Source: Escarpia spicata
Taxonomy: Eukaryota > Annelida > Polychaeta > Sabellida > Siboglinidae
Direction: 5' to 3'
Length of the DNA stretch: 64,000 nt
NCBI GenBank assembly: GCA_963995525.1
Contig: OZ023205.1
Coordinates: 60,698,609 to 60,762,608 of the forward strand
Position 1 is the first letter of the stretch. The number at the start of each line of letters is the position of its first letter. Made by a program: the position numbers and the translations under genes. The notes below the pieces were generated by a model. That model ran no database searches and was not told the DNA's origin. It saw only the letters and a list, made by a program, of their open reading frames with translations. Positions 11,230 to 62,531 of the stretch are shown here, piece by piece.

Positions 11230-12815
11230 CAGAGTGGTCAGTCATTAAAAACCCAAACAGACAGAGGAACAAATGACAACCGCTTCCTACTTGTTCTGCA
11301 TATAACAGTTTTAAAATCTAAACCATCTGGACGAGGGCAGAAGGACATATTCTTCGTGCAAAATATGCGTGTTATCAGCTAGAATGCGAGTTGCGTTTTA
11401 CAATACCTGCATTTCATAAAGAGCAGTGAGAGTGGACTGTTTAACACCAGTCACTTTACTACTGATATTTACAATGCGTTGAAGATTATACTTTTCTTTT
11501 TGTCTGACGTTCCCAAACCAACAGATAAAAGAAAAGGTTAAACCACTCTGGATAAACGACTTGTAAAACATGGCCAAAATGGTATTATCAATGTTAAAAG
11601 AGCATAGCTTCTTTAGGCAGTATAGTCGCTGCTGGCATTTCTTAGACGTAACGCCACAGTGACGGTCCCACCCCAACCTGCTGTCAATTGTCATACCGAG
11701 GTATTTACATTGGTCAACTACCTCCACCTTATCATCGTGGATGAGTCAGTCTGGGGTGGAGGGTCTGTCCTAAAGTCAATGCGCAAATCTTTGGTTTTTG
11801 TTGCGTTCAGGCACAAATACGATGATTATCACACCTTTCAAGTCTTCTAAAACAGGACCGTGGCCAACCTCATCGTTAAACAATAAACTGAGTAAAGCTG
11901 TGTCGTCTGAGAATTTAATAAAAAACCTATTGGGACGGGTGCTCCCACAGTCATTTGTATACAAAATAAACAACAGGGGAGACAGTACACATCCTTGGGG
12001 TGAGCCCGTGGACACAACCTTCACATGTGACATGGTGTTATTCACATGAACCTGTTGGGGTCTCCCCACCACAAAATCAAGCACCCATAGGGCCACGTCA
12101 GACTCACGTTTAAACTCAGAAATCTGTTTTTTGAAAAAGCAGGTGAGGCTGCACAGTTTCTAAGGCAGAACTCATATCAAGGTAGAGAATTCTGGCATAG
12201 GTTTTAGCCTTCTCAAGATGAGAGATTACAACGTTTAGTAGAGTAGCGACAGCCTCCTCCACCCCTCTCCCAGGCCAATACGCAAACTGTAGAGGGTCTA
12301 GAAGATGGACTGTATGGTTCAGTATCATGGTTTTGATGATTTTTTCAAAACTCTTCACTAGGTGCGATGTCAACACTACTGGACGAACTGGCAAGACAAG
12401 CTTTTTTGGGGACAGGAACGACAGTTGACGATTTCCACAAAATAGGGATTTTTGTAAGCTAAGAGAGGCCTGGAAGAGGAAGTGGAAGACACCAGACAAC
12501 TGAGTGGCACAATACTTCAAAACCTGACTGGAAATGCCATCAGGACCAGGACTTTTCATGACATTTGTACACTAGTCATAATCTCAACACATCTTTTTCT
12601 TCAATTTCCAATTTACCATCTGTCTTGGTTGAACTCATATTATCGTCAATGACAGAACATAGTCTTAATGTCCTCCCAGACTGTTCTCATATCACCTGTT
12701 TTAAACGTCAGTTCTATTTTGTTTTTTCTGATCTGATAATCATTTGAACTTCCTTTCGTTCAGCTGAATCTGCCTGAAAATAGACCCTATTCATGTCATT
12801 CAAAACTTTTTCAAT
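11230..12815 (-). pseudogene. Broken non-LTR retrotransposon reverse transcriptase
   Basis: This is a decayed LINE of the Jockey superfamily (CR1/L2/Rex1-like), read on the minus strand. Frame pieces in order are: 12815-12560, an upstream linker ending in a WEDIKTM-type motif, with breaks; 12559-12116, carrying KSPGPDG, DPLQFAYWPGRG and the first catalytic-Asp motif LYLDMSSA; 12096-11776, carrying GSPQGCVLSPLLFILYTNDC and the second catalytic motif as KFSDDTAL; 11727-11398, carrying KYLGMTIDSRLGW and QQRLYCLKKL; and a tail in another frame to about 11230. At least four frameshifts or stops separate the pieces, so no protein can be made. No endonuclease domain was found, as expected for a 5'-truncated copy. 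It sits in the kinase intron on the gene's sense strand. Confidence 0.88.
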
Positions 12816-29798: not shown

Positions 29799-32700
29799 CT
29801 GCAAGACAACACCAGCATCAGTGACATTCTCCAGTCCAAAATAACATCAAAGGGAAGCAACAGGCATTTTGGGACCTGTGCACCTGAAAGATATTCAGTA
29901 TCATGAAGGCGGTTTACTCAGAAATTATTCTCAAAGTAAAGAAATTCTTGTGAAATCTTATAGTTCCCGGCAGCCAGCGTATTATTATTTATACTGTTCA
30001 AGCCCCTGATGGCATTACTGGCATTATTCGGTATATATGGTGATTTTATATTTTCATCCAACAAAAATCGTGAAAGTTAAAACAACAGTTAAAAATGACA
30101 GTGAACATTGTAATACAATTTCCCAGTCATATCATAAGCATAAATTCGCAATAACTCATCAAAGACTTGCTATACATGTACGAATTAACTAGAATGTTGT
30201 CATGGTGCAACAAGTAATGTCTATATGACTGTAAGTGAAACATTAACAGAAAACAGACACAAAAAGATTGCAAACCCCACCCGAGTGTATACAAAACAAT
30301 TACATGAGCTGAAAGAACATATCCCTAGAATGAATCTTCTAGTTAAACCAGTTTTAGTATACAGGTATATATAGACAACATGCACTACAATATAATGACC
30401 TGTATTCACCCCCAACTTACTTATTTTGAATGCATATATGTATTGGAAAATGTTTTTTTTAACTTGAAAAAAAGTATTGTTGCTTCTCTTTCCCCAATTG
30501 ACTTACTTCAGCCAAACGTCACCAGTCTAAGTGGCAAGAGAAGTCATTAGAAATGGTTCAACACAGTACACACGTGTGACATTAAATGATACATACTGTA
30601 ACTAACTGTGTCACCCAATATTCTGTCCTAGTGGCATGGGCAAATGGAATGGTTTAACAGCCTGCCATTGCGATGTGTCAAAGTCTATTTAGCCTGTTAG
30701 TGTCACCCCTATGACAGAGGGTAGATTCTACTATCCTCATAATTTGATTTCTGGTTACCCTGTGAATGGCTTGGATTACTACCCCAGCAATAAACTGTCT
30801 CTGGGTCGACTGGTGAACGGCCCTGTAAAATGATAGATCCTGTATAGTACTCTTGAATATACACTCAGTTGTAGGCCTTGAATGTGAACCACACGGTCCA
30901 CGGATTGCAAACCAATCAAAACAGGTTATTGGATAATAAACCAAAGAAATCCTGCAGTGTGTTTTTGATGAAGCATAAATCCCAAATGTCGCTGTTGTAT
31001 AAACAATTTTGCGAAACTAATTCCTGGTCTACAGAACAAGATAGATCAACACAGACTCGAGTCTTGATTTCTGACCCAGAATGCTGTAATCCCGGCCTGT
31101 TGATCTTCCCTGATCCTGTATAATCCCTATTGATCCATGTTGAAAATATCAACTGACTGACAGCTGTCCGAATTTCACTCAACTTGGACCGAAGTAGCAA
31201 TGGACTCGATTCTGATAGATTCTATATAGGTTGTTAAGTAACTACAAGGTGGCGCTAGCAACAGTGACCAAATTATAATTTTCTCCCATTCGACTGGGTA
31301 GACATTTATTTATATACTGGTTCTGCAAACATTTTCATTTTACTCTACAAGTGTGTATATATAATGTCGTTGTTTTATTGCTTGGGAAAAATACAACTGT
31401 TCTGACTCGTATGGCATAACAATTTATTTCAGCAGGTTATATCAAAGTCTATTATGCTAATACTAGTCAAAATGCCTGGATTCCCAAAGTATTTGTACCA
31501 GAGGTTTGTCTTGATGTAAATTTTAGAAGTTTGTTGAAACACAACTATAGCCAGGTACTCTTTTACAAAGCTGGGTGAACTGAAGCAACGTGGTGTGAAC
31601 AAAATTGTTTGGCAGCATGAGGGTTCATTGAGAGTTCTACGTTCTAATTGAATCTAACCACTACACTACAGTGCCCCTCGTATTTGGGTAAATCAACAAA
31701 GTGTGTACTTTGGTGGGAAAGGTAAACCTGAATCAGTACTTGTCCTGTGTGGTGCTTTGATTTTTGATTTATTCAATATAAAAATGTAGTCTTGTATAAA
31801 TATAAATACAGTGTACATTAACTATATACGGCAGACTCAAGAAAGTGCAGGCAATTGTTTCCATTGTGTTGTCTTTGAGCTTACACAGGGATTATCATTA
31901 AACCTCCAGGGTCAATTGCCACCCCCCTGACTGAGGTCACAGGTCACATTTCCTGTATGTGTTGTCATATCATCAACATGCATATCATAATAGTCATCAG
32001 CCCCAGGCAATTGCATAACCTCTGAGCCTAGGGCCACAGTAGCATAGCCCCCCTAACAGCTAAAGACAGTAGCACAACCCCCCCCCCCCCCAATGTAAGC
32101 AGTATCCCCCAATCTACTCAGTCCTACAGACTGGGCAGAAACTAATCACTTTCAAACCAATTCTTTGAAACAGTTAACGCAATCATTAGCACTTGCAAAC
32201 TCATCTGCTAATGTGGTGCAATTGTCATCACCTACTAGTAGACAATTAGCCTGCTGGGTGTGCGTTGTAAAGAGGTTAGTACAACAGAAACTGAGCTGCC
32301 AATGATGACAGCCAACAGGGTCTCCTTAACACGTGCGTTTGAAAGTATGAATCAAAATCTAGGCCGATTAATATTTGTCTGTGTGCGCTATATTTTGGTT
32401 GTACTACATATCATGAAAGAAACTGAGAGCTTTTTGAAAATATATAAACATGCCAAGGACACAAAATTGTGGGCAGGTATAAGAATTAATTTTCAGTGAC
32501 AGTTGGCTTTTTGATTGGGATGTTGATGTCAGTTATTACAAATTTATGTTAGTAAAAAGTATCAAATTGTTGCGATTTCAGCCTCATTTTCCATTTGAAG
32601 ACATTAAAAGTGCTGCACCATTGACTCAGTTCTGAATTACATTTTCTTAACTTCACTGCGAACATACATGTGTACATAAGATAACTGGACATAGGCACTT

Positions 32701-41945: not shown

Positions 41946-43361
41946 AACAAATACCCCTCCCTTCTTTATATTAGGAGATATATATTATTATTGTTTCCCA
42001 AAGAGGTTGGGTTGGTGTGGGAATGAAGCCATATGAACAGCTCTGACGTTATCGCAAGTGTAAAGACATCACACCCTATAAGTACCTTTGACATTTATTA
42101 CATTAATAATTACACACATATATATATATATTTCAAAGTAACGTGTTAGAAACATTATTTTTTAAATCATACTCCGTTAAAAATTTAAATTATCTATACC
42201 TATATATAATACAGTTTACAGTATAAATTGGCATTCCGTACATATTAACTGAGAATAGTTGTAAACAGCATAGCCACAGCATGCTTACACGGAGAATGAA
42301 ACAATCTATTTTTAGCTACAGTGGGTTTTACCACAATGGTACATTAACCCTCTAATGAACATATGAAATGCCAAAGACCACCTGAGGAGTCGCACAATAC
42401 TGAGCCAAACTGGTGTCCTGTAACTTACGCTATATTTTGCTCCATAAACAGCTTCTTTGTGGACAGTTCCTGCTGATTAACATTTGTGCTGTATCTTAGG
42501 CCCATGAAGAAAAAAGAGACACAAAAAACACATCCTGCCTGTTTATTGTTGTTTGAAAAAAATTGTGGTTGTGGACAAAAAAATTGGTGGATAACATAAG
42601 TTACAGTGTCCACCATTTCAGGTCCAGAGAGCTCTGATCATTCTTAACGTTTTAAAAGTCTTGGTTGGATTCTGATGAGGTACTAGCATACATCAGTCAA
42701 GCAAATTTTGATTTCTGAAGGGTTTCACATTCTCATATTTTACTTAAAAGACACCGTGTAACTTTCATCGTGAACTTCACTTGGCATTGTGTCACATAAC
42801 AGTGAGTAAAGAGATCTTATCTGCTTCTTTCATTGTAGGTGTAGATGTATCTTGGCTACCATCTAAGACAGTTTTTCATTTATTTTAAGCACTTTTTGTT
42901 TTTTGTACTTTTGTTTTCGGTGTCTAGTCCTCCTATTTTAGCCCAGTGCAACTCCTCACCTATATATATATAGTATTAAATACCCATATATATATATATA
43001 TAAATGAAAAATTACCTTTACTAGCCACATGTACATAGCACATACATAACAAATCACCTTCCAAGAGTGACTTCTTAGCACCAAACACTGACACAGTTGT
43101 GAAGTAAGCAGTGCCTTAAGCTGAAAGCTAACTATCAGCTGTGGTCATGGCTGACGGCTCACTGGTTGTGGTTGACTGACCCCATGGCAGTCAGTCCTAT
43201 AACTGTGTTGAAAGTACAGTTCCTGTCCTTATCTGATGTCAATGTTTGGTTAGAGGCAGCAAAAGCCAGTCAATACCCTTTTAGAAATCACTCACAAATG
43301 GTCAGTGTACTATGCACAGACATAACAGGGCAGAATACAGCCTTGGAATGTGTCCAACAAA
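41946..43361. other. Kinase intron with TA-rich simple repeats
   Basis: TA runs near 42118 and 42959-43003. No gene recognised. Confidence 0.45.
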
Positions 43362-43362
43362 A

Positions 43363-44640
43363 ATGAATCCATGTTATTCGCAACAATCTGCACTCTTGTA
43401 CTGGTTTGAAGTAAGTATTGCAGTTTAAGAATGCATTATTCATTTGGATGCACCACCTGGGAGAAGTAGTCACATAAAAATGAATCCATGCTATTCGCAA
43501 CAATCTGCACTCTTGTACTGGTTTGAAGTAAGTATTGCAGTTTAAGAATGCATTATTCATTTGGATGCACCACCTGGGAGAAGTAGTCACATAAAAATGA
43601 ATCCATGCTATTCGCAACAATGTGCACTCTTGTACTGGTTTGAAGTAAGTATTGCAGTTTAAGAATGCATTATTCATTTGGATGCACCACCTGGGAGAAG
43701 TAGTCACATAAAAATGAATCCATGCTATTCGCAACAATGTGCACTCTTGTACTGGTTTGAAGTAAGTATTGCAGTTTAAGAATGCATTATTCATTTGGAT
43801 GCACCACCTGGGAGAAGTAGTCACATAAAAATTAATCCATGCTATTCGCAACAATGTGCACTCTTGTACTGGTTTGAAGTAAGTATTGCAGTTTAAGAAT
43901 GCATTATTCATTTGGATGCACCACCTGGGAGAAGTAGTCACATAAAAATGAATCCATGCTATTCGCAACAATCTGCACTCTTGTACTGGTTTGAAGTAAG
44001 TATTGCAGTTTAAGAATGCATTATTCATTTGGATGCACCACCTGGGAGAAATAGTCACATAAAATGAATCCATGCTATTCGCAACAATCTGCACTCTTGT
44101 ACTGGTTTGAAGTAAGTATTGCAGTTTAAGAATGCATTATTCATTTGGATGCACCACCTGGGAGAAATAGTCACATAAAATGAATCCATGCTATTCGCAA
44201 CAATCTGCACTCTTGTACTGGTTTGAAGTAAGTATTGCAGTTTAAGAATGCATTATTCATTTGGATGCACCACCTGGCAGAAATAGTCACATAAAATGAA
44301 TCCATGCTATTCGCAACAATGTGCACTCTTGTACTGGTTTGAAGTAAGTATTGCAGTTTAAGAATGCATTATTTATTTGGATGCACCACCTGGCAGAAAT
44401 AGTCACATAAAATGAATCCATGCTATTCGCAACAATCTGCACTCTTGTACTGGTTTGAAGTAAGTATTGCAGTTTAAGAATGCATTATTTATTTGGATGC
44501 ACCACCTGGCAGAAATAGTCACATAAAATGAATCCATGCTATTCGCAACAATGTGCACTCTTGTACTGGTTTGAAGTAAGTATTGCAGTTTAAGAATGCA
44601 TTATTCATTTGGATGCACCACCTGGCAGAAATAGTCACAT
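43363..44640. repeat. Homogeneous 117/116-bp satellite, 11 units
   Basis: Eleven units, each containing TTCGCAACAATCTGCACTCT, TGTACTGGTTTGAAGTAAGT and ATTGCAGTTTAAGAATGCAT. The first six are 117 bp and the rest 116 bp (one A lost before ATGAATCC). Units are nearly identical. Variants (CTGCAC/GTGCAC, GGGAG/GGCAG, AGTAG/AATAG, TTCAT/TTTAT) cluster along the array. The 117-bp period is 39 codons, so the minus strand is open for 268 codons (43288-44094) until the unit length changes. The peptide has no family resemblance. Confidence 0.95.
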
Positions 44641-53512: not shown

Positions 53513-53589
53513 ATGAACCCGTCAATCGCTATTGCAGCCGTATTTATTGGTTGCTGCAGCAATCTTGTTTTCTTGGAACTTCTGATAAC
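53513..53589 (+). CDS. SLC35B4: SLC35B4 exon 1 (N-terminus, TM1)
   Basis: Starts at ATG in a good context (CCCAAAATGA). It encodes 25 residues plus two bases of a Thr codon and ends at a consensus GTGAGT donor. The peptide MNPSIAIAAVFIGCCSNLVF then LELLI closely parallels human SLC35B4 (MRPALAVGLVFAGCCSNVIFLELL), including the diagnostic GCCSN and FLELL. This is the first transmembrane helix of a ten-helix nucleotide-sugar antiporter of the DMT superfamily. SLC35B4 carries UDP-xylose and UDP-GlcNAc into the Golgi/ER lumen for glycan and proteoglycan synthesis. The start is the only in-frame Met and matches the family's start. Confidence 0.93.
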
Positions 53590-55083
53590 GTGAGTATTTT
53601 TTCATCACAACATCATCATGAACATCATTGAACATGATGACATATATACTATATAATATACCGGTGCGCCGGATCGAGACCATTCTCAGCTGTCAGGGTG
53701 AATTAACTTCATTCAGACATTCACATCAGTCCATGATATAAAATATGACAAGTGAATAGATTAGTGTGACTTATTCTGGCGTAGCCTAAGGAGTAATGGC
53801 TAGTGTGTTCGACTGTTCGTGGCCTACTAACCATCCACTCACTCAGTCTCATGCAGTCACTGACACTGTCAGTCTCAAGTTTCCAGCATGCAGAATTGCC
53901 GGCCTTCAACCCATGGCAGGGGTTTGGTTGTTTCACATTTTCTCGTAATTTGATTATACCGTTCTTTGTACCTTCACATCTAGCAAAGTGCAGTTGTAGT
54001 GCTCATTAAAGCATCCTTAATCCTGACTCCTGAGTGATGGACACTGTTGATTAATCTTGTCTATATAGATCTAGGTGGTTACATACTCAGCGATTACAGC
54101 ACTGGATAGCCATAACCATAAGCAACAAGAGGATCGCCTTTCGTTTTCAGGGAAAAGTGAGGGTACAGCAGAAAAGTTTTTATAGGCTATTTGAAACAGT
54201 ATTAAAATGAAATAAACACAGACATCAAATATGACGGCAATAAGAAAATGAACAGTTAATAACATTGCATCATGTATAATTTTTTTGAAATGTTATCAAA
54301 ACAGTTTCACACCAAGATCATGTATATATGTTCAATATAAATAGAGACTAACAGAAGAAGGAGTGAGCTGTATGATCTTCCAACATGTGCCTTTTGTCGC
54401 ACATTTGTACCATTACTAGAAAAATATGACCTGTCGAAGAAGCGCTGCTAGTGTCTGACACTGAAATAACAATGTCAAACACAAAACAAAATGCCATAAT
54501 ATGGGTTTGTCGTAGCCGTCTGAAACTGACAAAGACACAAATGCGGCTAGAATAAATATAGTGTTTACTACATTCACTGGATGGTGGTCAAAACTGCTGT
54601 AGACTGGGCTATAGCATATTATGGTGATACATTGATTTTGTTATTGAAATGTGCTATTTTAAAAGACAATAGCTAAACAAACTGACACAAATTGCACAAA
54701 ATATGTATGTTCTAAATCACAAGCAGTTATGACATTGATTGAGTTCAAACAAATGTCTAGACAAGTCATTTTTATTGGATTTTCTGGTGATTGTGTTGGT
54801 TATTATGAATAGTTGCAGTGCTGGTGAATATTGGGGCTGTACCAAAAAACCTCCAATTACACCCTCATGTGGGGCTAAAAAAAAACTACCTTACAGGTCA
54901 TTCCTTTTAAATATATATAACCAAAAACCAAAACTAGAATGTCTGCCCACAAACCAAATATGTAATCATATCAAGCCGATGATCAATTATGATAATCAAA
55001 GCAATTCCCTCATTCCCAATAGTACCATCAGTTCATGTAAGAGAAAACTGTAATATTACATTTTGTGTAAATTTTGTTTACAG
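53590..55083 (+). other. SLC35B4 intron 1
   Basis: Bounded by GTGAGT and TTTGTTTACAG. No repeat array or further exon recognised; the 104-codon frame at 54739 resembles nothing. Confidence 0.7.
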
Positions 55084-55197
55084 AGAATCTCCAAGCAGTG
55101 GCAATCTCATCACCTTTGTACAGTTCGTCTTCATCAGCATTGAAGGCTTATTCTTCACTTCAAATTTTTTCACAAAAAAGCCTGCAATACCAATTTC
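55084..55197 (+). CDS. SLC35B4: SLC35B4 exon 2
   Basis: 114 nt between the TTTGTTTACAG acceptor and GTAAGT donor. It completes Thr26 and encodes residues 27-63 plus two bases (TC) of a Ser codon. The peptide has ESPSSGNLITFVQFVFISIE then GLFF and ends KKPAIPI. This matches human CGNIVTFAQFLFIAVEGFLF and RKPPAIPI. The exit phase (two bases of a codon) is compatible with both candidate third exons; because TCN is always Ser, the junction residue is the same whichever is used. Confidence 0.95.
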
Positions 55198-55623
55198 GTA
55201 AGTATTACTACGGTTATAAATGGCGTGTTATTACATTTGTGGACATGTCACATTGAAGTTAATTGAAGATCAACTGTTTTCTTAGATCATAGAAGAGTAT
55301 TCCTAATAAACTTTATGCAATGTGACAGTGGCAAAATCAAAACTTATCTATATTTTAAATTCAAAGGCAACTTAATGCTTTCATATTAATGAGCATAAAT
55401 AGAGATTTTTCCATTCTCCAAGTAGTAGTTGTAGCAATTGCTCAAATAACTTGATGACACGTTTGTTAAATGTCAAATAAGAACACGTCGCATTGGCGCG
55501 TTTGTAATGCCATCTGGAGAATGGATATTTGTGCTACTAGTACCAGGTAGATACAACATGATGTTTGTGTAGACCTGTGATGTGGGTGTAATGTAATGTT
55601 TGTTTTGATATGTCCCCTTGTAG
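55198..55623 (+). other. SLC35B4 intron between exon 2 and alternative exon 3A
   Basis: Short intron ending in GATATGTCCCCTTGTAG. Nothing else recognised. Confidence 0.6.
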
Positions 55624-55726
55624 AATGTTTGCCACTATGGCATCCATGCACATGGTGGACGTCATGTATCAAAACGTCCTCCACCTTGTAAAAGTCTCCA
55701 TTCCCATACAGCTCATGCTACGCTCG
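55624..55726 (+). CDS. SLC35B4: SLC35B4 alternative exon 3 (3A), probably mutually exclusive
   Basis: 103 nt, open, with acceptor TCCCCTTGTAG and consensus donor GTGAGT. It enters with one base completing Ser64 and leaves in phase 0, exactly like the canonical exon at 61275. The 34 codons begin MFATMASMHMVDVMYQNVLH and end SIPIQLMLRS; the canonical copy ends NIPMPLHLIFRS. By hand alignment without gaps 6 of 34 residues are identical and many are conservative. The canonical NNYALN motif is replaced by QNVLHL. Equal length and phase, the shared C-terminal P..L..RS and the position between exons 2 and 3 argue for tandem exon duplication. Joining 3A to 3B would shift the frame, so they should be mutually exclusive. 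The divergence is large, so an unused relic is the main alternative, though the frame and both splice sites are intact. Confidence 0.72.
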
Positions 55727-56811
55727 GTGAGTGGACAGTGTTGGCGTAGCTTGTGTGCATCCAGTATGTGCTACCTTCACCCTGCTGACCGGTCGCACTG
55801 ACCAGTCGGATTTGCTGCAATGTGTGGGGTTACCTGCTACACAGAATTGCCCAAAATGAAAGCTGAGAAAGTTACCACAATTTTGTGGGTGAATGTTTTT
55901 GTTAGGGCATTTACGTTTATGGATTTAATTGAAATTTGTTAGTCCGTGGCTGAGACATTTAATCAGTCTTTCTCTGAAACTTAATGATATGCTTGTGTAT
56001 CAATGTAATTTTACAAAGATAAATTTAACACTTTTGTTTTTGAAATGTTACCCCAAAATGTTGGTGCTTTTCCAGGTTTCATTTTGTGTTGTGCTTACAA
56101 TTGATAGTTCCGTTTGTGTGCTAATGAAAAAGTGTTAATTGTGTGCATGACACCATTCCCTTGGATGTCACTGTTTTTGATTTATTGTTTGCTTTATTTT
56201 TGTGGTTTTTAAGTTTTCAGCATCATCATCTTGATGATGGTAAGGTTACAATAGTTTAATCCTTCGGTGACACGTTGTTTGCAGATTTGATGCCAACATA
56301 TAACTTATTTTGTTTGTTGCAACCAACATTGATACTAGTACTGTAGTTGGTAATAATAGGGAACTAATGCAGTACACCAGTAGTTATATATATATATATA
56401 TTTAATTTCTTATAACTTTTTATCTTTAGTAGTAACAGTACGCTGGCAGTGTTGTGGCTTTTTGGCTGTGTTTTTGGCTGCAGTTTCATGATAACTTCCA
56501 TCACACCTAACACATATTCTAATAATAAATTATCTACATGGTCTACATAAGTTTGTTAATCGTGCTCATCCACTTAGTGTTTTAGTAGCTAGATGTAATC
56601 AGAGGCATGAAAGAAGCGAGAGTTGTTCATCTGGCTGTTAGATTGGTATTAAACTAGCATGTGTGATACAGTTTGTGTTCTGTTTGGACGTAGAACTGTC
56701 ATGGGACTATTGTGTGAACTTTGATCGTGTCAACGGTGAATGATAAGCACAGACTGGATGGACAGGTTACGCTAACACTGTGCACATGGGACACTGCAGC
56801 CAGTGCTGTAT

Positions 56812-57055
56812 ACGTGGGTACTAAAGAAGTACACACGGTACAGTGACTCAGGTACATTTCATCTATGTACTTGGGTACTTAAGCTGGGTAGTCGTGCTGT
56901 AAGCCAGCTCAGGTATAATACTGTGTATTTTGGTGCTTAAACATTTAGTCAGTACTAAAAGAAGTACTCACAGTACACTACGTCAGTACTAAAAGAAGTA
57001 CTCACAGTACACTACGTCAGTACTTAAAGAAGTAGTCACTGTAAACTAGTCAGTA
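56812..57055. repeat. AGTACT hairpin minisatellite, block 1
   Basis: About seven degenerate units of GTCAGTACTAAAAGAAGTAC then TCACAGTACACTAC. It is the same family as the blocks at 59870-60524 and 61035-61186. Confidence 0.8.
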
Positions 57056-57079
57056 TTCAGTGTTTCCCCTTGGTGAAAT

Positions 57080-57180
57080 GATAGGTGAGGTGGTAGGGGT
57101 GGGGTATGCGAGCGCCGCAGACGAAGCATTGCTAGGGGGTCCGGCATGCTCCCCCGGAGATTTTTTTAAAACTAGCTTTA
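57080..57180. mobile_element. Dispersed-repeat fragment with CGCAGACGAAG motif
   Basis: GCGAGCGCCGCAGACGAAGC then TAGGGGGTCCGGCATGCTCC and a short A/T-rich flank. It looks like a fragment of a dispersed marine-invertebrate repeat, by memory of similar motifs only. Confidence 0.35.
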
Positions 57181-57454
57181 AAATGGTGCATTCTGAGGTC
57201 TGTTTTAACATTTACTCTTGAATATAGAGGGGGGAGATATAAAACAACAAGACACTACTCGTAAATGTAGTAATCATGATTGATAAAAGTCAGTAATCAT
57301 GATTGTTTCATTATGTTGAGGTGTGGTTTTCATTTTACCACTGCTACTCAGTAGATGTGTGGTTTCCACTTGACCACTGGTACTTGGTTGTGGTTGTTTT
57401 CTTGCACTAACCCTAGGCCTTGTTACCTCGCTGACAGAGTCAATAAAAAAGTAA

Positions 57455-57560
57455 ACAGTAAGTTCTTATATAGCGCAGGACTGCTCAAAGCGCTTTACTC
57501 CCTGGCAGACATGTTCAATCGAACACCATCTCGATTTCTCTGGGAAGCATCCAGTGGTAT
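57455..57560 (-). mobile_element. SINE body fragment
   Basis: TTCTTATATAGCGCAGGACT, AAAGCGCTTTACTCCCTGGC and TCTGGGAAGCATCCAG parallel the start of the copy at 59958-60243, without the tRNA-like head. Confidence 0.65.
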
Positions 57561-58689
57561 CATCTGAAGACTTTTTCATCATCACCTTTAAATTATTTTA
57601 ATATCATAATATTATGGTAAATTGGTGGTTTATGTTCAAAAGATTATATTTGATTTGTTTGCTAGAATGCTATACAATTAATTAAACAGTCATTTCTGGA
57701 ATGCCAAAAAGTATGTTTCTATTAATCGCAAGAATGTTTCTTAAATTGTGTCCTTTTTATAAAACAGTGTAAGTTGTTTAGTACATCCAATTGTTGTGCA
57801 AACATATCATTGTTTAACCCAAGTTATTGATAACCCGTTAGTATACACGGTTTTGGGTAGTAGGCATTTTTTTTATGAGATGTGAACTTCGGTGGTTTAT
57901 ATTCGTAAGTATTTCACTTAAATCAACTTTCCCAAAAGTTTGTTTGCACAACTTTGTCGGACTATGTATTATATATTTAGCACAAAGATGTCTTATGAAT
58001 CACATTCCTTATTTTGCTAAAACAAAACGGCATAGAACATTAGTTGAATAGACTTGTGGGCATTTGCATCGAATCCGGACCCACTTTGTCATTGATTTTG
58101 CTGCTTGAGTTTTGCTTAACTTTGATACCTCAGTGAGATACACTGTAGTTCCATCATTCAACATTATCCTAGGCATATTTACCTTTAAGAATATTGCGTC
58201 TTAGGTCCATTTGAGGCGTAAATAGCGCCCCGGTTTGTATCAACATACGCTGCTATATATATATATCTCTAACGCATGGCCGCAGCGGCACAGACTAGCG
58301 CAAACCAGGTCGCTATTTGAGCTTCAACAGGGTCCGGATTCGATACAAATGCCGACTAGTGAATAGGATTAGGATGCACAGTTTTTATTTGGGCTTCAAT
58401 AGAGTCCACATTCGACACAAGTGTCGACAAGTGACGTAGTGCCATCAGCCTGTGTGGTTTTCACTCCCACCACCGTCATAAACCAAAACGCAAGTTACCG
58501 TTTGGGTGCCATTTTACATGAATGTCTAGATTTCTAGTATATCGAAACTCGGCAAGGTGTCACCAATAGGCCGACTAATGCAATTATTAACTTTTCCATA
58601 TATGAAAAAAATGGTACAGGATCATTACAAGACCAAAGGTTGTGCATGTAACATGGATACAACTACATTATGCAAATAATGTAGGTGCG

Positions 58690-59220
58690 AGGACAAAACC
58701 ACAGCGGACAAAACCACAGCCTCTTATTTCAAATGTGGACAAAACCCCAGCACTGTCTAGAATGTTTTGGCGTATCATAAATTGTCTATGTATGCATCAT
58801 ATACCCTTATTTAAATAAGTGTTGAAAACAAATATATATATAGTAATGCACTTTAGTTTATAAATCCAACATTGTTGATAGAGATTATTATATTTTCCAA
58901 TTAGGGGTGTAATAAACAATTAGCAGCATAAAGGTGCATATCATATCCCTTTGAGTGTAATTACTTGTTTGATCTTTCCTTTCAAAATAACTTCAGGACA
59001 TGGCATTGGCTGATGGTTGGAAAGTACCCCTAATTGGAAAATATTATAATGTCTATCAACTATGTTGGATTTAGAAACTAAAGTGCATTACTATCTATTT
59101 TTATTTTATATAATGCATACATAGAAACATTATGATACACCAAAACATTCTAGGCAATGCTGAGGTTTTGTCCACAATTGAAATAAGAGGCTGGGGTTTT
59201 GTCTGCTGAGGTTTTGTCCT
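58690..59220. mobile_element. Foldback element with ~200-bp inverted arms
   Basis: The left arm 58690-58910 and the right arm 59024-59220 are imperfect inverted copies (roughly 85-90% by eye with small indels). They run from AGGACAAAACC at the outer ends to CCAATTAGGGGT at the inner ends, with a loop of about 113 bp. Each arm itself contains three GGACAAAACC-type repeats near the tip. The loop has no coding capacity. No clear target-site duplication was identified. This is typical of a foldback or long-arm MITE. Confidence 0.85.
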
Positions 59221-59869
59221 GGATTCATGGTAGCATCAATGCATTAGCTACAACTACTCCTAAAGGTAGACTTATATATCTTATTACAAAGTCCCAATAA
59301 CTTGACATACAAGAAAACAAATTGTATATGTAACCATGGACACCAAATATCACTGGTGTCCATTAGATGATGTACCAGGCAGAAACAACAGGTGGTGATA
59401 TTTCCGTCAAAGTCACCAGATTGCTAGCCACCAATAAGGTCAACAGAATCACAAATACATGTTCGCTTAGAAATCTTCAAAATTAACATGATGTCTATTA
59501 ATGGTTCAGGTGTAACAAGGTAAGGTAACAATTGAAGACACCAACCTTACCCTCACTGTACATGGCTTGCTGTTTCTGAAAAGAGGCCAATGACATCATG
59601 ACATAATGCTATCTGCCAGTCTCTGCACACTAGATACACATTATCTTGAAATATGTCGCAGTGTTGCAGCTGTCAGGTGTGATGTGTGGTTGCACGTGTA
59701 ACATATATTTGAGGACACAATAAATACCTAATCTCTCTATGACATGTTTGGCACATTTCAAACGCAGTGTTGTTAAATTCACTGCTGATGTAACAATGTT
59801 GATGCCCTTTCTGTGTGATAAGTGCAATGCAAGCTCAGTATCAAGGAAGTATACCGGTAATATACTTTT
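59221..59869. other. SLC35B4 intron, no gene seen
   Basis: Nothing recognised. Confidence 0.4.
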
Positions 59870-59953
59870 TATTTACACTACATCAGTCAGTGAAGAAGTA
59901 CAATATAACAGTTAAGTATTAGCAAAGTACTGACAGTATATACTAAGTAAAGG
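59870..59953. repeat. AGTACT hairpin minisatellite, block 2 (left of SINE)
   Basis: Degenerate units such as CAGTCAGTGAAGAAGTACAA, separated from the next block by the SINE at 59958. Confidence 0.6.
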
Positions 59954-59957
59954 GACG

Positions 59958-60243
59958 TGCTTACATAGCGCAGTATCCAGTCAAAATCGAAAATCAAAGC
60001 GCTGTACACTTTACTCCCTGGCAGACCTGTTCAATCTAACACCATCTCAACTTCTCTGGGAAGTATTCAGCCATGCTGTAATTAATCTGCGAAGACTATT
60101 TGTACACAAATATCCACCACTGTCTGTAGCCAGGTACAGCTGAGTGAACTGAAGCAATGTAGAGTAAACAAACTTGCCCAAGGTTCGAAACCGCGTTCTC
60201 TCAGTCAAGAGTCCGGAGCTCTTACCACTGCGCTTCTGTGCTC
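59958..60243 (-). mobile_element. tRNA-derived SINE inserted in the minisatellite
   Basis: On the minus strand the head reads AGCGCAGTGGTAAGAGCTCC (A-box-like), then GGACTCTTGACTGAGAG and CGGTTTCGAACCTTG (B-box-like), giving tRNA spacing. The body follows, with CAGTTCACTCAGCTGTACCT and CCAGGGAGTAAAGTG. Related partial copies lie at 57455 and 31540. It interrupts the AGTACT array. A target duplication is not obvious. Confidence 0.75.
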
Positions 60244-60245
60244 CA

Positions 60246-60524
60246 CAGTACTTAAAGAAGCATAGTACATTAGGTAAACATTAAAGAAGTACTATATGCT
60301 AAGTCAGCACTAAATCAGTACTTAAATAAGTACTCATAGAACAGTAAGTACTTTAAAAAGTACTCACTGTACACTAAGTCAGATTTTAAAGAAGTACTCC
60401 TAGCATAGTAAGTCATTACATAAAAAGTATTCACATCACAATATGTCAGTACTTAAAGAAGTACTCACAGCACACTAAATCTGTACTTAAAGAAGTACTC
60501 ACAGTACACTAAGTCAGTACTTAA
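60246..60524. repeat. AGTACT hairpin minisatellite, block 3
   Basis: About eight units of roughly 34-36 bp. The consensus core is AGTACTTAAAGAAGTACT, a perfect 7-bp stem with an AAAG loop, followed by CACAGTACACTAAGTC. The last unit is cut at TTAA by the MITE at 60525. Confidence 0.9.
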
Positions 60525-61034
60525 CCGTTTGAGTGCCAGCCAAAATTGTGCTAACATACAGAAAGTGCCAAGCCATTTTTGAGACTTGCACGCCATACTA
60601 AACTTGTATTTTTATGCACTTAGTGTTTAAATTTCACCAAGTAAACTATTAATTTCCTGAAAGGTCAGATAATTTTCTATTTAGTTTGAAAAATGTAATA
60701 CCGGTAGTCAGATGACAACATAACTTACTCTCATTAATATGCTGGGGCTGTCATCCAATGCATTTTGCATGGTAAACATGAAATTGAGTTTTTTGGTTAC
60801 GACTTCTGGTTTATTTTCGCCGTCAAACTAGCGCAAATCTAAGTGTAACTGTAAAACCAGCTGTCGAACACCTCCCTTTTGTAATGATTAATCTTATTGG
60901 TCAGTTTAAAATGGTGTCATAGATGCAAGCCAATGTGCATGTAGCAAAACAATCGGCTGTGTGGCATTTTTTGATAAAACTGGTAATCAGCGCAATCAGC
61001 GCAATCAGCGCAATCAGCTGTGGCACTGAAACGG
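60525..61034. mobile_element. piggyBac-like MITE with TTAA target duplication
   Basis: The ends are CCGTTTGAGTGCCAGCC and, in reverse complement, CCGTTTCAGTGCCACAGC. TTAA lies on both sides (60521-60524 and 61035-61038). Removing the element and one TTAA restores an uninterrupted minisatellite unit, CAGTACTTAAAGAAATACTC, which independently confirms insertion and boundaries. The 510-bp interior has no transposase, so it is non-autonomous. GCGCAATCA is repeated near the right end. Confidence 0.92.
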
Positions 61035-61186
61035 TTAAAGAAATACTCACTGCACACTAAGTCAATACTGAAAGAAGTACTCACAGCACACCATATCAGT
61101 ACTTAAAGAAGCACTCAGAGCACACTAAGTCATTACTTAGAGAAGTACTCACAACACAATAAGTGAGTACTTAAAGAAGTACTCAC
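61035..61186. repeat. AGTACT hairpin minisatellite, block 4, next to exon 3B
   Basis: About four units with the same stem-loop core. The last ends about 88 bp before the acceptor of canonical exon 3B. It is therefore close enough to influence RNA folding around that acceptor; this is inference. Confidence 0.85.
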
Positions 61187-61274
61187 AGTCGGCCTGTGTT
61201 GCCTCTTGAGAGTTGGTCCGCCCCGTTGAGTTGTTTTGCTTGTGCTTGTCACGTGTCCTGTGTTGCCTCCCCAG

Positions 61275-61377
61275 GACCTACATCTTCATGGTGGCGCAGT
61301 TCTTTATAGTCAATGTTGCCAACAACTATGCACTCAACTTCAATATTCCAATGCCTCTGCATTTGATATTCCGATCG
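61275..61377 (+). CDS. SLC35B4: SLC35B4 canonical exon 3 (3B)
   Basis: 103 nt with acceptor GTTGCCTCCCCAG and donor GTAAGT. It completes Ser64 and encodes residues 65-98, beginning TYIFMVAQFFIVNVANNYAL and ending NIPMPLHLIFRS. Human SLC35B4 has YYAIMVTMFFTVSVVNNYALNLNIAMPLHMIFRS at the same length, so this is the conserved version. It covers a transmembrane segment and the conserved NNYALN..I..PLH.IFRS region that helps form the substrate path in the family. An upstream near-copy of its acceptor (CTGTGTTGCCTCTTGAG) ends at about 61211. Confidence 0.96.
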
Positions 61378-61948
61378 GTAAGTGTAGCCACATGCTTGGT
61401 TTTCTTCTTCATCTGCCCTGTGTTAATCCCACAAGTTTCCGGCGAAACATGCATGCTGTAATATGCAGGCTTACAGGTCTTAAAAATACTGCAACATGAC
61501 AATAATAATATGTGACGCCACAGCAACTGGGCACTAAGTGCAATGGCCTCCTGTTCTGTAGGATCTGCGCACTAGCCAGAAATAGCTGTCTAGTGCATGG
61601 TCCATCAATTTTGTGATTTCCGCATACCCTATGAGCTTATTTAACATTGTCCAGTTTATTTTCCTCGACATATAATCCAAATCCAGAGATGTTTAATTTA
61701 TGCTGATGGGAAGTGATATAAGTGCAGATACACATTTGCTGGTTTGAATAACAAGAATGTATCATGTGCTTCTATGACCTGGCTACATAAGCTTATAGAT
61801 GTACATATGTTTTGCTCAGAACTATTAAGATGAGGTATTGTATTTTAAATAATCTTGATTAACTTTTAAGAAATGAGTTGGATGTCTGCTCTGAGAACTA
61901 ACAAACTATTGGACACGTTATAAAACATGGTTTAACTTCATGTTTTAG
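61378..61948 (+). other. SLC35B4 intron 3
   Basis: Between GTAAGT and TTCATGTTTTAG. Nothing else recognised. Confidence 0.7.
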
Positions 61949-61998
61949 GGTTCTTTGATAGCAAACCTAATACTAGGGGTGATCATATTAAAAAAGAG
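61949..61998 (+). CDS. SLC35B4: SLC35B4 exon 4
   Basis: 50 nt. It encodes GSLIANLILGVIILKK plus two bases of the next codon, between TTCATGTTTTAG and GTAAGT. Human has GSLIANMILGIIILKKR at this point. It forms most of one transmembrane helix followed by a Lys-Lys turn. The split codon AG+T becomes Ser, where human has Arg. Confidence 0.95.
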
Positions 61999-62449
61999 GT
62001 AAGTGACCTATACAGCATAATAATATGCTTTATTTGTATATAATATACAGCACATCGGTCCATAAAGTTAACACATTGTATAAATGCAGTATTGTTATTA
62101 TTTAATATACAAGAAACATGACTGACTGGAGGATAATTTCAGTTTGTTCTGCAAAGTTGTAACATTAATGGTATGCTCCCATTTTAGTATCTTTGTACAT
62201 GGTGTGTGTAGGAAGTGTTGAATATATTTTTGAGTGAACATTTTACTAAGAGAGGATTAGTTTCTATGTGGGCACTATGTGTATAATAAGGCATCTTCTT
62301 TTCGGGAAAAAACTTTTAAAGATGCTTTGAGAAAAAAATAATGATGGGCATAATTTTTAAAGATGTGTTTGACTGACTGTGTTCAACTGATCATGACTAT
62401 TGTACAATCATGTGATTGTGTAGTCTATAAATGACTTGTTTTTCTTCAG
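61999..62449 (+). other. SLC35B4 intron 4
   Basis: Ends in GTTTTTCTTCAG. Nothing else recognised. Confidence 0.7.
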
Positions 62450-62531
62450 TTACACAACATCGAAGTATGTCTCCGTGGTGATGATCACGGTCGGTATCAT
62501 CTTGGCGACAGTCATATCAGCACGAGAAGCA
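62450..62531 (+). CDS. SLC35B4: SLC35B4 exon 5 (right-most exon in window)
   Basis: 82 nt. It completes Ser115 and encodes YTTSKYVSVVMITVGIILAT then VISAREA, to about residue 142, ending in phase 0 at a GTGAGT donor. Human has YSIFKYTSIALVSVGIFICTFMSAKQV. About 43% of a typical ~330-residue SLC35B4 is present; the remaining exons lie beyond the right edge. Confidence 0.93.

Follow-up and report, generated by a model that had tools for sequence, protein, structure and literature searches.

Mutually exclusive exons that swap one transmembrane segment of a carrier for another, and so tune transport, are known from SLC12A1/NKCC2 (exon 4, versions A, B and F) and from SLC25A3 (exon 3A or 3B). These are plasma-membrane and mitochondrial carriers, with folds unrelated to that of SLC35B4, the transporter whose gene is examined here in a 64,000-nucleotide (nt) stretch of DNA from the tubeworm Escarpia spicata (contig OZ023205.1 of assembly GCA_963995525.1, positions 60,698,609 to 60,762,608 of the forward strand; hereafter the window). 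Nucleotide-sugar transporters decide which sugars enter the endoplasmic reticulum (ER) and the Golgi, and the tuning of their substrate choice and exchange is poorly resolved. A further described system is coq-2, in which exons 6a and 6e are mutually exclusive in helminths, annelids and molluscs and bring about a switch of substrate, as described from RNA-seq and exon deletion (PMC7434440).

As judged from the genomic sequence, SLC35B4 of this tubeworm carries two homologous versions of a 103-nt exon 3, likely to be used in a mutually exclusive manner, and predicted to equip the protein with one or the other of two luminal gates. The arrangement of the gene, the relationship between the two exons, the conservation of the divergent copy in another tubeworm and the presence of a similar segment in an abalone are the lines of evidence presented below.

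Gene structure

Exons 1 to 5 of SLC35B4 span positions 53513-62531 on the plus strand of the window, and the later exons lie beyond its end. The exons are the following:

53513..53589, plus strand: SLC35B4 exon 1, coding portion, starting at the ATG; open frame, donor AC/gtgagt (the slash marks the exon border), product the same as in Ridgeia across 26 residues
55084..55197, plus strand: SLC35B4 exon 2, with TC, the first two bases of a Ser codon, at its end
55624..55726, plus strand: alternative exon 3A, 103 nt, A-type transmembrane segments (TM) TM3 + TM4a; kept in Ridgeia P0004, with an A-type relative in Haliotis P0043
61275..61377, plus strand: canonical exon 3B, 103 nt, family-consensus TM3 + TM4a; family score 85.4 bits
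61949..61998, plus strand: SLC35B4 exon 4, 50 nt; in-frame join from either 3A or 3B
62450..62531, plus strand: SLC35B4 exon 5, 82 nt; its out-of-frame reading in Ridgeia P0004 gives the divergence bound

Exons 3A and 3B each supply the last base of the Ser codon that exon 2 leaves incomplete, and both exit in phase 0; no further exon was found between them. The splice borders of 3A are acceptor tttgatatgtccccttgtag/A and donor TCG/gtgagtgg, and those of 3B acceptor gtcctgtgttgcctccccag/G and donor TCG/gtaagtgt, with 13 and 14 pyrimidines, respectively, in the 18 acceptor positions (11 to 13 for the remaining exons). Positions, length, phase, splice sites and ungapped 34-residue products are thus as the initial annotation had described them. 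Joining exons 1, 2, 4 and 5 with either version of exon 3 generates an open frame of 142 residues; skipping both leads to stops two codons past exon 2, and with both included, exons 4 and 5 are read in a shifted frame, in which the window contains no stop. Over exons 1-5, the product containing 3A (isoform A) and that containing 3B (isoform B) match Pfam PF08449, the UAA transporter family, with 131.6 and 170.4 bits (cut-off 26.2), and isoform A also displays additional, sub-cut-off matches to two related Pfam families. The closest proteins are from Lamellibrachia satsuma (P0003) and Ridgeia piscesae (P0004), both members of Siboglinidae, Annelida; isoform B differs from the Lamellibrachia protein at 8 of 142 residues.

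Homology of exons 3A and 3B

The products of the two exons align without gaps over 34 residues, of which six are identical (42 of 103 nt). The window contains 91 open reading frames with the layout AG-103 nt-GT (52 on the plus and 39 on the minus strand, 3A and 3B counted), and among these, 3B itself aside, none matches 3B better than 3A, with a BLOSUM62 score of 23; the runner-up (14) lies on the minus strand. For a comparison with the whole family, 139 database homologues and isoform B were aligned over the 34 columns of exon 3, with the exclusion of P0004, which holds both exons, and a position-specific score was derived from 137 homologues, the tubeworm and abalone rows being left out. On this score 3A reaches 13.3 bits, a value attained by 10 of 200,000 shuffled versions of 3A and by none of 9,818 open AG-103-GT exons generated by simulation, whose maximum was 4.4. 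When all six frames of the window were scanned, the two exons ranked at the top (3B 85.4, 3A 13.3); the next stretch scored just 7.7, so that no third copy of exon 3 is present in the window by this measure. An earlier family score, trained with the abalone A-type row included (21.8 bits for 3A; none of 200,000 shuffles and none of 5,680 random exons as high), was replaced by this one. A scorer built on three A-type rows failed to discriminate, giving 16.2 to 3B and 15.1 to an unrelated stretch at 29857.

Among the 139 listed homologues, each of the 138 B-type rows is identical to 3B at 19 or more of the 34 positions, in agreement with the suggestion that 3B is the conserved version. Exon 3A retains N81 and P91, two columns that are invariant across all 140 rows, as well as R97 and S98; at Y66, the third invariant column, it carries Phe. 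By its sequence, 3A is genuinely homologous to exon 3 of SLC35B4, and 3A and 3B are phase-matched alternative third exons, as initially proposed. An ostracod protein, P0027, was considered for its 11/34 identity to 3A, which is above that of most rows, and set aside as B-type in the aligned segment (27/34 to 3B). This protein (Darwinula stevensoni, 574 residues) comprises two SLC35B4-like halves in one chain, and may reflect a fusion of tandem genes or, alternatively, a gene model that runs two neighbouring genes together.

Conservation of exon 3A in Ridgeia

The gene model of Ridgeia piscesae (P0004, NP493_1188g00036) runs through exon 1, exon 2, 3A and 3B, continues into a frame-shifted exon 5, and omits exon 4. 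Since exon 4 is dropped and exon 5 is out of frame, the joining of both third exons is likely to be an annotation error. The model nevertheless allows each exon to be compared with the window: residue changes amount to 1/33 in 3A, 0/26 in exon 1, 3/38 in exon 2 and 0/34 in 3B.

The shifted reading of exon 5 is itself of use: set against the equally shifted reading of the window, it exposes nucleotide changes that the true frame masks. The shifted readings of P0004 and of the window match at 17 of 27 residues, which requires that at least 12 of 81 nt have changed. In the true frame this corresponds to 2/26 residues changed and nine silent changes per 21 synonymous sites, or a lower bound of 0.43 on synonymous divergence, a figure that derives from one exon and from the protein reading of P0004 rather than from Ridgeia DNA. 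Neutral simulation of 3A, scored over 34 residues where the Ridgeia comparison covers 33, gave one or no residue change in 0.28% of runs at 0.1 changes per site, and in 0 of 20,000 runs at 0.4. A single change in 33 residues, at a synonymous divergence of at least 0.43 in the same gene, supports the view that 3A is under selection as protein; the possibility raised in the initial annotation, that 3A is a dead relic, is answered by this disparity.

An A-type exon in abalone

A protein of the abalone Haliotis rufescens labelled 'isoform X2' (P0043) contains an A-type exon 3 alone, which speaks for the use of one third exon at a time. It is the only such row among the 139 listed homologues; a search behind them listed 120 of 1,355 matches, with further A-type rows possible among the rest. 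In addition, proteins in the database are grouped at 90% identity, and isoforms that differ at about 28 of 336 residues may share one cluster. The label implies that another isoform of the same Haliotis gene exists. Outside exon 3, P0043 is an ordinary SLC35B4, with 57% identity to P0003. The initial annotation had taken the window itself to be molluscan; protein identity places it among the siboglinid annelids, and a mollusc nonetheless possesses a protein of the 3A type. A protein search with residues 62-101 of P0004, centred on 3A, returned P0004 as the sole match, which is no proof of absence given the 90%-clustered database, the length-limited candidates and the need for exact five-residue words. 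Searches of genome contigs with P0004, and of viral contigs with P0043, yielded no relative.

The tubeworm and abalone A-type rows both depart from the family majority at 25 positions and carry the same residue at eight of these (permutation 0.0006). Exon residues V13, L19 and I28, shared by the A-type rows, occur in 0/137 other rows, and L32 in 1/137. In a tree of the 34 columns and 31 rows, the A-type rows are joined at 97/93, on long branches and with an odd composition in the Haliotis row.

Alternative explanations

An origin of the A-type exon common to tubeworm and abalone, before the annelid-mollusc split, is favoured by these shared residues and by the tree, though not proven. A somewhat unlikely account holds that the duplication is real and in use, but that the A-types of the two lineages arose independently and resemble one another through convergence or long-branch attraction. 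Such a history gains from the branch lengths and composition just mentioned and from the approximately unbiased (AU) test, which does not reject a tree in which the tubeworm copies are all forced into one group (p 0.089); independent origin has also been reported for the mutually exclusive exons of mrp-1, a case cited in PMC7434440. It has to accommodate, however, the eight common departures from the family majority, including residues found in none or one of 137 other rows, and the joining of the A-type rows in the tree. If 3A were instead a decaying relic of the tandem duplication that no longer makes protein, its loss of most family-consensus residues, with six of 34 common to it and 3B, would come as no surprise; the almost unchanged 3A of Ridgeia despite high synonymous divergence, an intact frame with intact splice sites, and the abalone protein with its A-type exon make this very improbable.

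The same conservation bears on the idea that 3A is a selected poison exon, whose inclusion, with 3B or alone, would reduce the output of SLC35B4 by shifting the frame and triggering decay, the encoded protein being irrelevant. Double inclusion does shift the frame, and the Ridgeia model does join both exons. A poison exon has no need of a conserved protein, yet 32 of 33 residues are kept in Ridgeia in the face of the nucleotide changes in exon 5; 3A also retains the family-invariant N81 and P91 and is in frame if used alone, and we consider this explanation unlikely, although in a comparison of protein sequences selection on the RNA of 3A (splicing signals) looks the same as selection on its residues. 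It is harder still to credit that 3A serves as an alternative first coding exon, giving a transporter devoid of TM1 and TM2. An ATG (55625) does stand directly after the base with which 3A completes its phase, its Met is kept in Ridgeia, and human SLC35B4 has a shorter variant of 231 residues whose make-up is unstated in the available text of PMC6245738. Against this, 3A is preceded by a proper acceptor, its first base fills the Ser codon left open by exon 2, and ordinary TM1-TM2 precede the A-type segment both in the Ridgeia model and in Haliotis isoform X2.

Potential consequences for the transporter

Exon 3 corresponds almost exactly to TM3 and TM4a, the helices that form the luminal gate of the related SLC35B1 (PMC12267056), which refines the initial suggestion that a transmembrane or luminal segment is swapped. 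In the arrangement that we favour, with 3A and 3B as mutually exclusive exons, a full transporter would be made from transcripts carrying exactly one of the two, since 103 is not a multiple of 3, while frame-broken transcripts, with both exons or neither, would be destroyed by nonsense-mediated decay. Isoforms A and B would have a common nucleotide cavity, because both retain the Arg that lines up with SLC35B1 K117 and the next residue, Ser, and would be set apart by the two helices whose opening faces the lumen of the ER or Golgi. The difference between them would concern release and exchange kinetics or sugar selectivity, rather than overall fold. A change of localisation, also put forward in the initial annotation, finds no support, the ER signal of human SLC35B4 being a C-terminal dilysine motif, outside exon 3, as described in PMC6245738.

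Several observations weigh against this proposal. The sole gene model from a close relative, P0004, places 3A and 3B in one predicted protein, and the frame produced by double inclusion meets no stop inside the window, so that decay of such transcripts is an assumption. Isoform A scores below isoform B on PF08449 (131.6 versus 170.4 bits). The A-type segment evolves faster, with 12/34 residues common to tubeworm and abalone, and the constraint on it looks looser than that on 3B. All four gate positions compared differ between 3A and 3B, yet 28 of 34 positions differ overall, and the four alone are therefore no evidence of gate tuning; at two of them the Haliotis A-type is the same as 3B.

A broader proposal, which we advance tentatively and hold at somewhat less than even confidence, is that of a nucleotide-sugar transporter with two gates, whose second, interchangeable TM3-TM4a gate on the luminal side would have been maintained by lophotrochozoans as a mutually exclusive exon since before the annelid-mollusc split. 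One lophotrochozoan gene might in this manner provide two transporters with the same nucleotide cavity and different luminal release or sugar choice. Were the abalone exon homologous, an alternative form of the transporter that is undescribed in the literature searched would predate that split. A natural swap of nearly just the luminal gate, the rest being unchanged, also amounts to a ready-made experiment on gate versus binding site.

The 3A-3B intron and other features of the window

The intron between 3A and 3B harbours a 34-bp tandem repeat in three clusters:

56948..57055, plus strand: 34-bp tandem array, first cluster
60308..60524, plus strand: 34-bp tandem array, second cluster
61035..61188, plus strand: 34-bp tandem array, third cluster; its end lies 86 nt upstream of exon 3B

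The repeat, with the near-palindromic core AGTACTTAAAGAAGTACT, has 11 matches in the window at three or fewer mismatches (0.02 expected), all of them within this intron and on the plus strand. The RNA of the region before 3B (61020-61275) folds no better than shuffled sequences (z -0.48), and the array is thus given no role in splicing. Inverted repeats in the gene interval number 13 pairs, mostly belonging to a fold-back element and to TA runs; weak pairs that link intron 2 to the 3A-3B intron are I5 (55421-55441 / 59241-59261) and I11 (55382-55398 / 60725-60741). The fold-back element, a large imperfect repeat at 58690-59220 in the 3A-3B intron, has arms of 114 nt (89% complementary) and an inner pair of 82 nt (89%), and resembles a palindromic mobile element. 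The window has no Rfam match at gathering thresholds.

Elsewhere, a broken reverse transcriptase lies on the minus strand at 11776-12571, in two overlapping frames that match PF00078 with 32.9 bits (cut-off 29.6) and with 29.1, just under the cut-off. A long open frame on the minus strand at 43288-44136 consists of a tandem unit of about 36 residues, similar to INAFLNCNTYFKPVQEC, and is probably a minisatellite rather than a gene.

Comparison with known systems

In the set of open-licence PMC papers searched, with preprints outside its scope, no report was found that links SLC35B4 to the terms 'mutually exclusive exon' or 'tandem exon duplication'. Human SLC35B4, a transporter of UDP-xylose and UDP-GlcNAc, represents the orthologous family, isoform B being the conserved form; its splice variants, of 331 and 231 residues, differ in length, whereas the tubeworm gene exchanges exons of equal length (PMC6245738). 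Human SLC35B1 (AXER; cryo-electron microscopy structures 9i20 and 9gry) is, unlike SLC35B4, an ATP/ADP exchanger, and an alternative exon is not mentioned in the available portion of its description (PMC12267056).

The nearest precedent, by analogy, would be coq-2, where homologous exons of the mutually exclusive type likewise occur in annelids and molluscs; one of its exons is pan-eukaryotic and the other lineage-restricted, remodelling the core of a membrane protein and switching its substrate, according to PMC7434440. The two systems differ in gene and fold, in that splicing and substrate switch have been demonstrated for coq-2 while SLC35B4 is known here from sequence, and in that exon 3A of SLC35B4 has drifted much further from the exon with which it is paired. 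The kind of system is therefore known; as far as we have seen, its occurrence in SLC35B4, the TM3-TM4a segment involved and its apparent age are new.

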